DNA of 34,991 nt from Chloroflexota bacterium (GTDB taxonomy: Bacteria > Chloroflexota > Anaerolineae > UBA4142): positions 1 through 34,991 of the forward strand of contig JACRPR010000155.1 of assembly GCA_016223105.1 (NCBI GenBank), read 5' to 3'. Shown here piece after piece: positions 2,635 to 10,022 of this stretch. Position numbers and translations under genes: made by a program. Numbering within the stretch: position 1 is the stretch's first letter; each line of letters opens with the position of its first letter. The notes under the pieces were generated by a model. That model saw only the letters and a program-made list of their open reading frames with translations, was not told the DNA's origin and made no database searches.

Positions 2635-2662
2635 TTGACTAAATAATCGTCTGACATATAAT
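2635..2662 (+). promoter_or_regulatory. Strong sigma70 promoter opening the BMC locus
   Basis: TTGACT (2635-2640) and a perfect TATAAT (2657-2662) are 16 bases apart, 27 bases upstream of the first BMC-P gene. It is the clearest promoter of the microcompartment region and probably drives its first genes. Confidence 0.8.
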
Positions 2663-2689: not shown

Positions 2690-2983
2690 ATGTTAATCGC
2701 GCGCGTCGTCGGCGATGTGGTCGCGACGATCAAAGACGAAAAAATGGTCGGACGCAAATTATTGATCGTCCGCGAAGTTTCAACCGAAAACGAAATCGTC
2801 GGCAAGCCAGTCGTCGCGATTGATACGGTGGATGCCGGGATCGGCGATGTCGTGCTGATCGCGCAAGGCAGTTCCGCGCGCCAAACCTCCAGCACGAAAG
2901 ACACCCCAACCGATGCGGTGATTTTCGCGATTGTGGATTCGCTCGACGTGCAAGGTCAAGTTACGTTTCGCAAGGGACGTTGA
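2690..2983 (+). CDS. BMC-P vertex protein (EutN/CcmL family), copy 1
   Basis: A 97-residue pentamer-forming shell protein. The N-terminus 'MLIARVVGDVVATIKDEKM' and the signature 'DAGIGDVVLIAQGSSARQT' followed by 'AVIFAIVDSLD' are diagnostic of the EutN/CcmL family, which caps the vertices of polyhedral microcompartments. The start is supported by a GAGGAG ribosome-binding site and a strong promoter upstream. Its stop overlaps the next gene's ATG by one base. Two further copies occur at 14407 and 14791, giving three vertex paralogues as in several metabolosome loci. Confidence 0.95.
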   Translation: MLIARVVGDVVATIKDEKMVGRKLLIVREVSTENEIVGKPVVAIDTVDAGIGDVVLIAQGSSARQTSSTKDTPTDAVIFAIVDSLDVQGQVTFRKGR

Positions 2984-4107
2984 TGCCCGGCTGGACTGAT
3001 CTCGGAAATATCTGGACGACGTTCAAAGAATTGGACATTCGTCCGATTGCCGATGACGCGCAACGCGCGGTTGTGCTCGCGTTCGTCGGCGCAACCGGCG
3101 CGGGCAAAAGTACATTGATCGCGGCGTTGCGTTACGATCAACGCGCGCGCGACCAGGTCATCACGCCAACCATCGAAGCCGATCTCGAAAACGCGTCGCG
3201 CATCGAAGCCGATTTGATCGTGCTGATGCTCGACGCGACGCGCGGCGATGTTTCACTCGAAGCGAATGTCTATCGCGATTTGAAAACTGCCGGGCGCAAC
3301 CTGCTGATCTTTTACAACAAGCAAGACGCGTTGAGCGATGCGAGCATCCTCGCCAGCGCGATGCCGATGTGGTCGGGCACGCGCGTCGCGATGGGTTCCG
3401 CAATCAAGCCCGAATCGCTCGCGACCGAATTTGTTCCGCGCGTGAGCGACGCCTTGCGCGACAAACCAATCGCGCTCGCGCGGCAGTATCCATTATTTCG
3501 CAGTGCGGTCGCGCGCAATCTGATCAACGACACCGCGTTCGCGAGCGCGAGTTATGCCATCGGCACCGGCTTTGCCGAAATGATTCCCGCGCTCAACATT
3601 CCGTTCAACATCACGGATCTGATCGTCCTGACCAAAAACCAGGCGTTGATGGTGTACAAACTCGGACTCGCGCTGGGGTTGTCCACCGATTGGCGCGATC
3701 ATCTCGCAGAATTTGGCGGCGTGATTGGCGCGGGATTTTTGTGGCGGCAAGCCGCGCGTCAACTTGTCGGCTTGATCCCGATCTGGGGCATCGTGCCCAA
3801 AGTCGCGATTGCATATGCCGGGACGTACGCGGTCGGCGAAGCGATTGTGTACTGGTATCACACCGGGCGCAAAATTTCCGGCAAAGATTTGAACGAGCTG
3901 TACGCGAGCGCGATCACGCAAGGCAAAGCCGTCGCGAAAAATTTACTCGCGCGCGCGCCGCGTCCAACCTGGCGACAATTTCGCTTGCCGCGTCTTGCAT
4001 TGCCAGTGCCGCGCACAAAAATCGTTTGCGCGAATTGCGGAAAACAAAATCCGCGCGACGCGAAATTTTGTAATCAATGTGCAGCGGAGTTGAGTTCGCA
4101 TCTATGA
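2983..4107 (+). CDS. GTPase-like DUF697 membrane protein with C-terminal zinc ribbon, G3 motif missing
   Basis: A 374-residue protein coupled to the BMC-P gene by a TGATG overlap. A P-loop GATGAGKS (36-43) and a G4-like NKQD (112-115) mark a small GTPase domain. They are only 76 residues apart, against roughly 100 or more in Era/Ras-type GTPases, and no DxxG (G3) motif lies between them. The segment runs straight from a switch-I-like 'TPTIEADLENAS' into 'ADLIVLMLD'. The middle is a hydrophobic DUF697-type region ('IGTGFAEMIPALNIPFNITD', then 'LVGLIPIWGIVPKVAIAYAG'). The C-terminus is a CxxC...CxxC ribbon (CANCGKQN...CNQC). GTPases occur in other BMC loci (PduV, EutP); whether this one hydrolyses GTP is doubtful. 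Confidence 0.75.
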   Translation: MPGWTDLGNIWTTFKELDIRPIADDAQRAVVLAFVGATGAGKSTLIAALRYDQRARDQVITPTIEADLENASRIEADLIVLMLDATRGDVSLEANVYRDLKTAGRNLLIFYNKQDALSDASILASAMPMWSGTRVAMGSAIKPESLATEFVPRVSDALRDKPIALARQYPLFRSAVARNLINDTAFASASYAIGTGFAEMIPALNIPFNITDLIVLTKNQALMVYKLGLALGLSTDWRDHLAEFGGVIGAGFLWRQAARQLVGLIPIWGIVPKVAIAYAGTYAVGEAIVYWYHTGRKISGKDLNELYASAITQGKAVAKNLLARAPRPTWRQFRLPRLALPVPRTKIVCANCGKQNPRDAKFCNQCAAELSSHL

Positions 4108-4436
4108 TCGTTCCAAATGCAGACCGCGCAATTGTGGACATTCGCAAATTGCGTGATTATTGCCTTGACCCTGAACACGATGACGGCAAACACAAAGCCC
4201 GACTATTCAAAGCGGCGTTTGGAATTACTGCGAGTGATGCCGCGGATTTGCGCGATGCATTATTGCAAATTGTTAGAACGCACGACGCGAAACTTGGGCG
4301 ACGCGATGGGTACGGACAACGCTATGTCGTTGATTTTGTTTTCGAATGGCGCGGCAGACGCGCGGTAGTTCGAAGCGCGTGGATTATCGAACACGACGCT
4401 GACCCGCCACGACTCACCAGTTGCTACCCATTGTAA
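4104..4436 (+). CDS. DUF6883-like small protein
   Basis: A 110-residue soluble protein whose ATG overlaps the stop of the GTPase-like gene (ATGA). The opening 'IPNADRAIVDIRKLRDYCL'-type segment (here VPNADRAI...), then 'DPEHDDGKHKARLFKAAFGI' and a C-terminal 'YVVDFVFEWRGRRAVVRSAW' match my recollection of the DUF6883 family. Those proteins are often paired with a DUF4926 gene, as here. The function is unknown. Being embedded in a BMC operon is unusual and may reflect insertion of the pair. Confidence 0.65.
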   Translation: MIVPNADRAIVDIRKLRDYCLDPEHDDGKHKARLFKAAFGITASDAADLRDALLQIVRTHDAKLGRRDGYGQRYVVDFVFEWRGRRAVVRSAWIIEHDADPPRLTSCYPL

Positions 4437-4450
4437 AGTTTGAGGTGAAT

Positions 4451-4693
4451 ATGACCAGCGAAATAAAATTGCTTGACGTAGTCGCGCTCACAGACGACCT
4501 TCCCGAATACGGTTTGTGGCGCGGGCAAGTCGGCACCGTCGTTGAAATTCTTGCGAATGGCGCGGCGTTTGAAGTTGAATTCAGTGACCGCGATGGACGA
4601 ACTTTTGAATCACTCGGTTTACGTCCCGATCAAATTATGCTCTTACATTATGCACCGATTGCCGCGCCGCCAAGAGTAACTGTGCCAGCATAA
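4451..4693 (+). CDS. DUF4926-like small protein
   Basis: An 80-residue protein starting at ATG 4451 after a GAGGTG ribosome-binding site, 14 bases past the DUF6883-like gene. The pattern 'IKLLDVVALTDDLPEYGL', then 'RGQVGTVVEIL' and 'AFEVEFSDRDGRT' is the small beta-barrel DUF4926 fold. Such proteins sit next to DUF6883 genes and have been suspected of immunity or partner roles; nothing in the sequence proves this. A tail 'PIAAPPRVTVPA' is likely disordered. Confidence 0.65.
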   Translation: MTSEIKLLDVVALTDDLPEYGLWRGQVGTVVEILANGAAFEVEFSDRDGRTFESLGLRPDQIMLLHYAPIAAPPRVTVPA

Positions 4694-4783: not shown

Positions 4784-5116
4784 ATGTCCTCAGTTCCCCC
4801 CGAAATGATCGCGCTCGGCATGGTTGAGACGCGCGGTTTGATCGGTTCAATCGAAGCCGCGGACGCGATGGTCAAAGCCGCGAACGTGAAATTGATCGGC
4901 AGTGAATACATCGGCGGCGGTTTCGTAACCGTGATGGTGCGCGGCGATGTTGGCGCGGTCAAAGCCGCGACGGATGCCGGCGCCGCGGCGGCGAAACGCG
5001 TCGGCGAACTCGTGAGCGTGCACGTCATTCCGCGCCCGCATGGTGACGTCGAGACGATTTTGCCGACAATGACCAAAGGGTCGTTCGGCGGACGTAGCGG
5101 CGGCGAGAGTTCGTAA
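4784..5116 (+). CDS. BMC-H hexameric shell protein
   Basis: A 110-residue single-BMC-domain protein. The segments '[20 protein letters not shown]' and '[20 protein letters not shown]' with '[14 protein letters not shown]' are textbook BMC-H, the hexagonal facet tile. It is the only BMC-H gene in the window, so it should be the main facet component. The pore loop region reads SEYIGGGF. The C-terminal tail ([15 protein letters not shown]) is short and flexible. The start is fixed by a perfect AGGAGGT ribosome-binding site. It is followed after 24 bases by an unknown gene. Confidence 0.97.
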
Positions 5117-5140: not shown

Positions 5141-5611
5141 ATGAAAACTGAATTGCGCCTCACCGATGAAAACACGGCACGCGACGAAAATTTTATCGCG
5201 CAGGTGCGCGCCGTGCTCGATTTGCCGGCGGATGCGCGCGTCGAGTTGCAAAACATCGCGGCGGACGCGCGCGGCGGATGGAACGTCGAGTACGCGATCA
5301 CGTTGCCCATTCAAATTCGCGGCGGCGAGTTCGGCATCGCGAACGGCGTAATCGTGGACGAGCGCGTGAGCGCGGCATTGGTGTTCGATGCGCGCGGCGC
5401 GCTCGTATCATCCCAGGTGTCGCCGGTGGATGAACGCCATTTGCGTTCGGTCAAAGATCAAATCAAGAAACTCGCCGCGACGGACCAGATTTTTTCCGCG
5501 CCGTCCGGTGAGCCAATTGATTCAACTGCATTGCGCGCCCAACGCAAACCGTGGCAAATCGTCGCCGACGAACAAGGACACAAACGACTCAAGCGCGCGT
5601 ACATCGCGTAG
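5141..5611 (+). CDS. Unknown BMC-operon protein sharing a domain with the adjacent metalloprotease
   Basis: A 156-residue soluble protein with no recognised family. Its C-terminal two thirds align almost without gaps to the C-terminal part of the next gene product. Examples are 'FGIANGVIVDERVSA' against 'YGIAAGATIDLSDAV', 'KDQIKKLAATDQIF' against 'QDHVVKLVERKRVY', 'GEPIDSTALRAQRKPW' against 'GEQVDSEKLIAEKKPY', and the ends 'KRLKRAYIA' against 'KRVRRAFIA'. It therefore looks like a free-standing copy of a domain fused to the protease. A role as adaptor, inhibitor or shared targeting domain is possible but unproven. GAGGTG precedes ATG 5141; 11 bases separate it from the protease gene. Confidence 0.7.
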   Translation: MKTELRLTDENTARDENFIAQVRAVLDLPADARVELQNIAADARGGWNVEYAITLPIQIRGGEFGIANGVIVDERVSAALVFDARGALVSSQVSPVDERHLRSVKDQIKKLAATDQIFSAPSGEPIDSTALRAQRKPWQIVADEQGHKRLKRAYIA

Positions 5612-5622
5612 GAGGGGTTACG

Positions 5623-7188
5623 ATGGCTGGGCTAGTCAATGTGTTCGTCAACGATCCGAATGCGCGTGGTCTCGGCTTGCAACAAGTTCAGCCGCCAACC
5701 GCGCCGTCGCGTTTTACGATCCCAGGTTGGAATGGCGCGGGCGGCTTGTTCAATCCCGGCACACAACAATTTCAAGCCGGGATGTTGCACGTCGTTCTCA
5801 ATCAGACCTATGTGATGTGGTCTGATTTTTTCAACGGCGATTTCGCATGGCAACCGCGCGTCAATCAATTGCCGGTCGCACCTCGCGCCGGGCAAGACCT
5901 CAACGCGTATTATGATCGCGTCGGTTTGAAATTCTTTTTCGCGAACGACCAGGTTACCGGCGCGACGCTCTACACTTGCGAAAGCGCAGATGTCGTCGCG
6001 CACGAGTGCGGGCACGCGATTCTCGACGCGCGCCACCCCGATTACTGGGATTCACTGCTCGGCGAGACCGCCGCGTTCCACGAAGCGTTCGGTGATGTGT
6101 CCGCGATTTTGATCACGCTCGCCGATCCGCGCGTGCGCGCCGCGATTCTCGCGGAAAACAACGGCGACCTTGCCAAGAGTAACGCGGTAACGCGACTCGC
6201 GGAACAACTCGCGCGCGGTTTGGCGAACAATGGATTCGCGCAAGCAGTCGTTTCGCCCGACGCGTTGCGCGACGCGGTCAACACATTCCGTTATCGCGAT
6301 CCCGATCAATTGCCCGCGCGCACGCCCGCGTCGAAACTCAGTTCCGAGTCGCACAATTTTTCGCGCGTTTTTTCCGGCGCGTTTTACAATTTGCTCGTCG
6401 TGATGTATACGCAATTGCGCCAAGCCGATCCCGCGCTCGGCGCAGATGCCGCGCTCGAGCAAGCGCGCTACGACGCGGGGCATTTGATCGCGCAAGGGTT
6501 ACTGCTCGCGCCGCGCGGTGATGCGTTATTCAAATCGATCGTTACCGCGATGTTCGCCGCCGACGCGCAAATGTTCGCGGGCAAATACTTTGGCGCGTTA
6601 CGCAAAGCATTTGTCGGTCGGCGCATCATCAAAGCGTCCGAAGCGGACGCGTTGAAAAAATCCGCGGGCGGCGGCACGCTCAAGACGAGTGCGCGCGGTA
6701 TCACCGCGATGTCTGCCGCGCCGGTCTCGGTCGAAACGATTGAACGCAAACTCGGCGCGCCACTGCCTTCGGAATTTATTCAGGCACTGCGCGAACGGCG
6801 TCAAGATTTGCGCTTGATGGACGACATCGAACGCCGCGATGCGAGTCGCGTGTTGCATTACGAATCCACGCGCACATCGGAATTGAAAGGCAAATCGTAC
6901 GGCATCGCGGCTGGTGCAACGATTGATCTCTCGGATGCGGTTGCCGTGCAACTCGCGGAAGACGGGACTGTGATCGCCGCGCAAATGCATCGCGCGGATC
7001 GCGCGTACGAAAAACGCATCCAGGATCACGTTGTCAAACTCGTCGAGCGCAAACGCGTGTATGACACGGCGGAGGGCGAGCAGGTGGATTCGGAAAAACT
7101 GATCGCGGAGAAAAAACCGTACTTTATCGCGTTCGATGCCGATGGTAGCAAACGCGTGCGCCGCGCGTTTATCGCGTGTGCAATCTAG
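5623..7188 (+). CDS. Thermolysin-like (gluzincin) metalloprotease in the BMC operon
   Basis: A 521-residue protein with no signal peptide. HECGH at 127-131 gives the HExxH zinc motif. 'ETAAFHEAFGD' (148-158) supplies the downstream zinc glutamate E154 and D158, like NEAxSD of family M4. 'SHNFSRVFSGAFYNLL' with His244 resembles the transition-state histidine region of thermolysin (HINSG...AxYL). The extracellular M4 signal/propeptide architecture is absent, so it should act in the cytosol or inside the shell. After a linker, residues from about 405 form the domain shared with the preceding gene product. The start at ATG 5623 has an excellent GGAGGGG site 11 bases past the neighbour's stop. Substrate unknown; shell or cargo processing is one idea. 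Confidence 0.8.
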   Translation: MAGLVNVFVNDPNARGLGLQQVQPPTAPSRFTIPGWNGAGGLFNPGTQQFQAGMLHVVLNQTYVMWSDFFNGDFAWQPRVNQLPVAPRAGQDLNAYYDRVGLKFFFANDQVTGATLYTCESADVVAHECGHAILDARHPDYWDSLLGETAAFHEAFGDVSAILITLADPRVRAAILAENNGDLAKSNAVTRLAEQLARGLANNGFAQAVVSPDALRDAVNTFRYRDPDQLPARTPASKLSSESHNFSRVFSGAFYNLLVVMYTQLRQADPALGADAALEQARYDAGHLIAQGLLLAPRGDALFKSIVTAMFAADAQMFAGKYFGALRKAFVGRRIIKASEADALKKSAGGGTLKTSARGITAMSAAPVSVETIERKLGAPLPSEFIQALRERRQDLRLMDDIERRDASRVLHYESTRTSELKGKSYGIAAGATIDLSDAVAVQLAEDGTVIAAQMHRADRAYEKRIQDHVVKLVERKRVYDTAEGEQVDSEKLIAEKKPYFIAFDADGSKRVRRAFIACAI

Positions 7189-9707: not shown

Positions 9708-9768
9708 CTCATTCTGAACGAAGCGAAGAATCTTAGACCCTTCGCTTTGCTCAGGGTGACAGCGCAGG
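9708..9768. repeat. Interspersed palindromic repeat (CATTCTGA..CAGGGTGACAG type)
   Basis: The spacer after the glycosyltransferase contains CGAAGCGAAGAATCT and a CCTTCGCTTTGCTCAGG arm that can fold back on each other. From general knowledge this is a widespread intergenic repeat type in environmental bacterial genomes. It occurs once here. Confidence 0.5.
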
Positions 9769-9779
9769 AGAAAAACGAA

Positions 9780-10022
9780 ATGGCATTTATCACCGAACAA
9801 GAATTGCGCGAACAATGGCAAGAGGGCAAGGTAACACGATTTGAATTTCCGGCGGGCACGCGCTTTTCACCGTCCGCGCGCGATTTCATCAACCAGTGGC
9901 GGCTCGACGTGTTCGTCGGCGGCGAACGCGCGACCGAAGAGACGCCGCGCGTCGCGCATTATTCCGAAGACGGTTTGCCGTACCTCGCAAACAAATGGAA
10001 GAACGTGCAAGCGCGATCGTAA
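9780..10022 (+). CDS. Small BMC protein resembling EutT/EutQ N-terminus
   Basis: An 80-residue protein. 'FITEQELREQW' followed by 'FPAGTRFSPSARDFI' matches the N-terminal pattern of EutT ('ITEAWLR...DSRLTPSARELL') and EutQ ('ITANDIR...SIITPEARE'). The catalytic adenosyltransferase and cupin parts of those proteins are absent, so only the short 'T-E-x-x-L-R ... L-T-x-x-A-R' module remains. It probably acts as an assembly, interaction or cargo module. A second protein with the same module is encoded at 14003. The ribosome-binding site AGGAG precedes ATG 9780. It lies just before eutJ, another ethanolamine-type gene. Confidence 0.6.
   Translation: MAFITEQELREQWQEGKVTRFEFPAGTRFSPSARDFINQWRLDVFVGGERATEETPRVAHYSEDGLPYLANKWKNVQARS

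Follow-up and report, generated by a model that had tools for sequence, protein, structure and literature searches.

Directly behind the gene for the shell protein BMC-H, the window (the whole stretch of DNA analyzed, 34,991 nucleotides) encodes two neighboring proteins, P2 and P1. Judged by its residue pattern and predicted fold, P1 is a gluzincin-type, M4/M36-like zinc protease with an intact active site, and P2 appears to be a detached copy of its C-terminal domain. Our best explanation, which we place midway between doubtful and likely, is that the two genes encode a controlled protease and a detached tail-domain partner that were recruited once to a BMC operon and act on the shell or its cargo.

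A predicted zinc protease encoded in a shell operon

2635..2662, + strand: promoter-like TTGACT-16-TATAAT, 11/12, a consensus match only, preceding the EutN gene that starts at 2690
4784..5116, + strand: BMC-H (EutM-like), 110 aa; Pfam BMC E 2.5e-29, NCBIfam EutM 144 bits (cut-off 133)
5141..5611, + strand: P2, 156 aa, stand-alone copy of the P1 C-terminal domain; proposed trans-acting regulator/inhibitor
5623..7188, + strand: P1, 521 aa, predicted zinc protease, M4/M36 (thermolysin/fungalysin) fold, carrying a C-terminal domain of its own

The original prediction placed P1 in a shell operon, and the gene arrangement bears this out: BMC-H, P2, and P1 all lie on the + strand, separated by gaps of 24 and 11 bases. 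From BMC-H to P1, no terminator-like site was found on this strand, and the promoter-like site at 2635..2662 is a candidate for the operon start. Upstream (5') of BMC-H are genes for EutN, a small GTPase-like protein, and DUF6883 and DUF4926 proteins. On the 3' side of P1 are genes for a LiaF-like membrane protein, a PMT glycosyltransferase, a short protein weakly resembling the EutT N-terminus, and an HSP70/FtsA-like (EutJ-like) protein, and further on for a DUF2079 membrane protein, a CcmP-like BMC-T, two EutN, and an aldehyde dehydrogenase; beyond the last of these, the locus list continues with a cyclase, GH1, and class II aldolase. To judge by gene content, the host is Chloroflexota-like; its genome contains one BMC-H gene and a single, divergent BMC-T gene.

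Several of these neighbors recur among the loci that we read. The GTPase-like protein (2980-4107) has a C-terminal zinc ribbon and is encoded by most relatives at their BMC locus, and the 91-aa protein with the weak EutT N-terminus match (9747-10022, E 0.0036) is conserved in most BMC loci. The DUF6883/DUF4926 genes (4077-4693) form an insertion between the GTPase and BMC-H genes that, among the loci read, occurs elsewhere in G006 only.

P1 starts at the ATG at 5623, which is preceded by a strong ribosome-binding site (TAGGAGGGGTTACG). The ORF listing also offers a longer frame from a GTG at 5551, but this start is unlikely because it overlaps P2.

6001..6015, + strand: HECGH zinc-binding/catalytic motif, P1 residues 127-131; invariant in 16 orthologues
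6082..6096, + strand: third zinc ligand E154 and D158 (EAFGD); invariant in 16 orthologues
6352..6354, + strand: H244, predicted transition-state histidine; unchanged in 16 orthologues and also in the distant homologues aligned

All of the active-site residues named in the original prediction (HECGH, E154, D158, and H244) were present, with a numbering that fits the ATG at 5623. In the alignment of 16 P1 orthologues, the others of which are 43-61% identical to P1, residues H127, E128, C129, G130, H131, E154, D158, and H244 were unchanged, N94-A95 and Y97 were likewise invariant, and HExxH was also retained by distant homologues. P1 carries the HExxH, the Glu in xEAxxD, and the downstream His of a gluzincin. 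E154/D158 fits the gluzincin NEAxxD pattern, and N94-A95/Y97 (the NAYY loop) lies at the position of the thermolysin NAFW substrate loop.

The AlphaFold2 model of P1 (pLDDT 79.5) was built, like that of P2, on an alignment depth of 15-16 sequences. Its best Foldseek matches were the M36 and M4 proteases 7qp3, 4k90, 7qfy, 6ya1, and 3nqx (E 5.7e-6 to 5.1e-4, probability 1.00, TM (target) 0.51-0.55). At the sequence level, P1 missed the Pfam cut-offs for M4 (16.2 versus 22.4 bits) and M57 (15.9 versus 21 bits); its relatives reached or approached those for M36/M4, and one from Agrobacterium cleared M36 (28.2 versus 23.3 bits). Because P1 stays below the cut-off and the Agrobacterium relative passes M36, we refer to P1 as M4/M36-like and not as a member. 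A PDB sequence search with P1 returned just weak ACE matches around the zinc motif, and PDB searches with the P1 and P2 profiles returned nothing meaningful. As had been claimed, P1 has no signal peptide as far as sequence inspection goes, no hydrophobic leader being visible at its N-terminus, and the protein is apparently cytosolic. We infer that P1 is proteolytically active.

Homology between P2 and the C-terminal domain of P1

6757..7185, + strand: P1 C-terminal domain (P1-C), about residues 379-521, common with P2; hhalign 99.7%, E 1.7e-26

BLASTP aligned P2 with the P1 tail over 108 residues without a gap (30% identity, E 3e-17), and hhalign matched the P2 alignment to the P1-C alignment over 142 columns with the score given above. 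The original prediction of a nearly gap-free match of about 115 residues stood as to the homology and fell slightly short as to its extent, which runs from about residue 379 to 520 of P1. Unrelated folds of the two C-termini, named beforehand as evidence that would speak against the match, did not turn up: AlphaFold2 gave P2 (pLDDT 91.9) and the C-terminal part of P1 the same element order, beta-beta-alpha-beta-beta-alpha-alpha-beta-beta.

No Pfam or NCBIfam entry was found for the P2 family, and PADLOC and PHROGs gave nothing usable. Foldseek searches with the P2 model returned weak matches to NTF2-like and cystatin-like structures and to the vibriolysin propeptide 3nqz_A, all with E >= 0.001, and no known inhibitor was matched with confidence. 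The propeptide is suggestive as a relative of P2, but the match was too weak to use.

In a tree with the C-domains of BMC-unlinked proteases as the outgroup, P1-C and P2 formed separate clades (support 95/92 and 91/87), each with members of both families (f1 and f2), which places the split between P2 and P1-C before the family split. The simplest history suggested by the tree is one duplication of the protease tail domain before f1 and f2 diverged. Among 298 genomes of the class, the P2 family was limited to the host's order, bar one weak fused match. In other members of the phylum, a weak P2 match in G188 was rejected, as the frame reads as an unrelated protein, and another in G094 is weak and unconfirmed.

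The pair follows BMC-H in two types of BMC locus

P1 was present in 16 of the 20 genomes sampled from the host's order, all drafts, and in 9 of 13 genera. In 14 of the 15 testable genomes, i.e., those with a readable 5' flank, BMC-H lay directly 5' of P2-P1, or of P1 alone in G011, which kept P1 and has no P2; G004 was left out because its contig ends before this position. The exception was G013, a draft genome without a BMC match, in which P2-P1 lies behind the GTPase gene with no BMC-H between them. At this locus (L010, reverse strand, ~1000-1030 from the end), P2 comes straight after the GTPase, BMC-H having gone by loss or assembly error. Two genomes, G007 and G010, have a recognizable BMC locus with neither P2 nor P1, indicating that the pair is accessory.

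The two families differ in cargo genes. The f1 loci encode class II aldolase, aldehyde dehydrogenase, a CcmP-like BMC-T, three EutN, and one BMC-H; EutB was found in none of the sampled f1 genomes, and these loci look aldolase/aldehyde-dehydrogenase based. The f2 loci encode EutB and aldehyde dehydrogenase, with EutB on the same contig as BMC-H, P2, and P1 in 5 of 6 cases. The order BMC-H, P2, P1 was maintained in both the aldolase-type and the EutB-type loci, and the common denominator is therefore the shell, not the cargo. As a component of the BMC locus, the pair occurs in shell operons across lineages, in two families and two BMC types. Alongside this, comparison of f2 loci (e.g., L034 1152-2639) with f1 loci revealed a common set of BMC-H, GTPase, EutJ-like, BMC-T, and EutN genes, an apparent exchange of cargo around a common shell between f1 and f2.

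BMC domains were detected in 105 of the 298 sampled class genomes, and BMC-linked P1 in the host's order only. Other homologues of the protease had no listed BMC match on their contigs. A protease family that is common and unlinked to BMC loci had been named as an argument against the original prediction; this description applies to the wider family, which occurs in several phyla off BMC loci, but not to the order's branch, which is BMC-linked. The BMC-H tail was also considered as a substrate of P1 and rejected: it is the same in genomes with and without the protease, and so nothing points to its processing by P1.

Tail-like partner genes beside related proteases outside BMC loci

The C-terminal domain was also detected on BMC-unlinked relatives, the Armatimonadetes/G038/G490 proteins (hhalign E 3e-10 and 6e-13; hmmsearch E 2e-13 to 2e-6); G038 and G490 are other genomes of the class, and the absence of BMC genes was judged on the stretch or contig examined. 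A Pirellula/Piscinibacter/betaproteobacterium group gave a borderline C-domain match to P1-C (hhalign E 5e-5). Scanning of genome contigs confirmed at least eight relative loci among the matches listed. A Burkholderiales search found no close homologue apart from the query genome.

Directly 3' of the non-BMC proteases are small genes whose products have ends that resemble those proteases' own tails. With leave-one-locus-out profiles, built from the protease tails of the other loci, the 3'-adjacent small ORF outscored all other non-protease ORFs at 8 of 12 loci, namely those of Agrobacterium, Mesorhizobium, Polymorphobacter, Pirellula, Streptomyces, Piscinibacter, a betaproteobacterium, and Embleya, which represent Pseudomonadota, Planctomycetota, and Actinomycetota. 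ORFs starting 3'-adjacent make up ~6% of each locus, and the binomial P for 8 of 12 is about 5e-8. Individual partner matches are mostly weak, so their strength lies in their position; several of the calls are from single loci each.

Small partner proteins, frames of ~68-180 aa: L129 5550-5756, L130 5398-5619, L132 5130-5360, L135 5313-5570
Further small partner proteins: L048 8857-9318, L049 11174-11437, L051 11250-11789, L053 11540-11794

Most of these partners end in THxVxxxxxGxxxLxRxRF; some are unannotated, and those tested had no Pfam or NCBIfam family. A partner profile scored 52.9 against protease tails (shuffled profiles, at most 11.5) and 30.0 against P2 (shuffled, 15.4); its score against P1-C, 19.0, was barely over the shuffled value of 16.5. 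The foreign partners match the second half of the domain only. No partner ORF was found in L050, L131, L133, L134, or L136. In Sinorhizobium medicae (L131, 5395-5850), partner-like pieces lie downstream of the protease in different frames, as if decayed. The Mesorhizobium pair (L130, 5679-8967) adjoins genes for an ABC transporter with a peptidase domain and for an HlyD adaptor, an arrangement seen in peptide/bacteriocin export.

These loci bear on the role of the common domain, for which shell targeting had been one of the original suggestions. If the domain were a shell- or cargo-docking module bringing P1 and P2 to the compartment, with P2 as an adaptor or scaffold, the position behind BMC-H that is retained in 14 of 15 testable loci, of two BMC types, would be accounted for, as would the near-confinement of the P2 family to the order within the class. 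However, the domain is carried by relatives that have no BMC gene nearby, and a related partner stands beside unlinked proteases; shell docking is thus improbable as the original role, and targeting is disfavored. Encapsulation peptides, terminal amphipathic helices set off by a flexible linker, were gauged by the hydrophobic moment of the N-termini only (P1, 0.36; P2, 0.53; aldehyde dehydrogenase, 0.74). These moments lent no support to such a peptide on P1 or P2; by them, the P2 N-terminal helix is less amphipathic than that of aldehyde dehydrogenase, and this helix is predicted to lie within the fold (pLDDT about 94). Overall, we consider docking unlikely, and the common domain is better read as a putative regulatory or inhibitory module.

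A conserved cysteine at the end of the protease tail

7177..7179, + strand: C519, closing the RRAFIAC tail of P1; invariant in 16 orthologues, not in P2

A Cys after the last aromatic strand ends the tails of 16 of 16 P1 proteins and 10 of 11 foreign proteases. At the same position, it was found in none of 8 foreign partners and none of 15 P2 proteins. Together with the status of P2 as a paralogue of P1's intramolecular domain, this distribution favors a role for P2 as an activator, folding helper, or competitive binder that displaces the P1 C-domain from the active site, since a P2 without the tail cysteine fits a competitor unable to make the final contact; we nevertheless regard this role as highly improbable. 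Another very doubtful proposal is that P1 is a shell-dismantling or quality-control protease kept latent by a C519-to-zinc switch and steered in trans by the detached copy of its tail. In such a cysteine switch, C519 might be freed in response to the compartment's reactive aldehydes.

A proposed model for the P2/P1 pair

In the explanation that we prefer, a controlled protease with a detached partner, P1 would be a cytosolic M4/M36-like zinc endopeptidase with its own C-terminal control domain, and P2, the detached paralogue, would bind P1 at its catalytic cleft or C-terminal domain and restrain it. The pair would be one case of a wider two-gene module consisting of a protease and a tail-domain partner, brought by a single recruitment in the order's ancestor into the BMC operon, directly behind BMC-H. 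Its function would most likely be controlled proteolysis of shell or cargo, in compartment turnover or quality control. P2 would inhibit P1 rather than activate or target it, and the shell or its cargo would be the substrate. Because the pair is kept behind BMC-H whatever the cargo enzymes, the most likely substrate or cue is the shell or some feature common to both kinds of locus. Several observations speak against the model. G011 has P1 without P2, so P1 can be tolerated in the absence of P2, which argues against P2 as an essential antidote. The pair stands without BMC-H in G013 and is absent from the BMC loci of G007 and G010. The uniform BMC-H tail, the lack of a confident inhibitor match for P2, and the half-domain match of the foreign partners, near the shuffled level for P1-C, also count against it.

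Relation to known systems

P1 resembles the M4 (thermolysin) and M36 (fungalysin) proteases of clan MA(E) in its HExxH+E+D+H pattern, NAYY loop, and fold. It differs from them in scoring below the Pfam cut-offs, in showing neither a signal peptide nor an N-terminal propeptide, and in possessing its own C-terminal domain, a partner gene, and a BMC locus.

The closest parallel in gene layout is protealysin, a cytosolic M4 protease whose operon-encoded inhibitor, emfourin, binds to its active-site region (PMC9505478). In Serratia proteamaculans, as in P1/P2, the gene for a non-secreted M4-type protease lies beside that for a small controlling protein (PMC9505478), the controlling role of P2 being putative. 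P2 differs in its BMC setting and in that it copies the C-terminal domain of the protease beside it, and the P2 members and foreign partners tested had no significant Pfam match, emfourin among them, at the thresholds applied; we suggest an analogy and do not claim homology. Protealysin/emfourin has been proposed to serve in competition (PMC9505478), and P1/P2 might similarly be a conflict or toxin-immunity style pair that resides in the BMC operon with no role in the compartment. The exporter and HlyD adaptor genes adjoining the Mesorhizobium relative are compatible with this idea, as is the dispensability of P2-P1 in G007 and G010. By contrast, fourteen-fold retention behind BMC-H in two families at 43-61% identity, the lack of a match in an anti-phage defence library, and the retention of P1 without P2 in G011 argue against it, and we rate a conflict pair as rather unlikely.

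Among BMC systems, the f1 loci resemble HO/PVM/GRM5-like (class II aldolase) metabolosomes, and the f2 loci resemble the EUT type (EutB, aldehyde dehydrogenase). GRM3 loci, a different BMC type, likewise contain a peptidase gene, the one such case in BMC loci that we found noted; in the passage concerned, its role is called unclear and perhaps regulatory, and neither the peptidase family nor a partner is named (Axen et al. 2014, PMC4207490). The main text of the 2021 BMC catalogue does not mention a protease or peptidase (PMC8217296). The module of a protease and a detached tail-domain partner seems to be new: none of the partners tested has an entry in Pfam, NCBIfam, or PADLOC, and no matching open-access paper was found.

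Little is known about the maintenance and turnover of microcompartments (PMC8262871). A protease gene that stays directly behind the shell gene in both families, whichever of the two cargo types is encoded, is a specific candidate for a function in compartment maintenance and turnover, and its cognate partner, P2, would offer a handle for switching P1. As the module is found in at least three phyla besides the host's order, a family of M4/M36-like protease regulators may await characterization.
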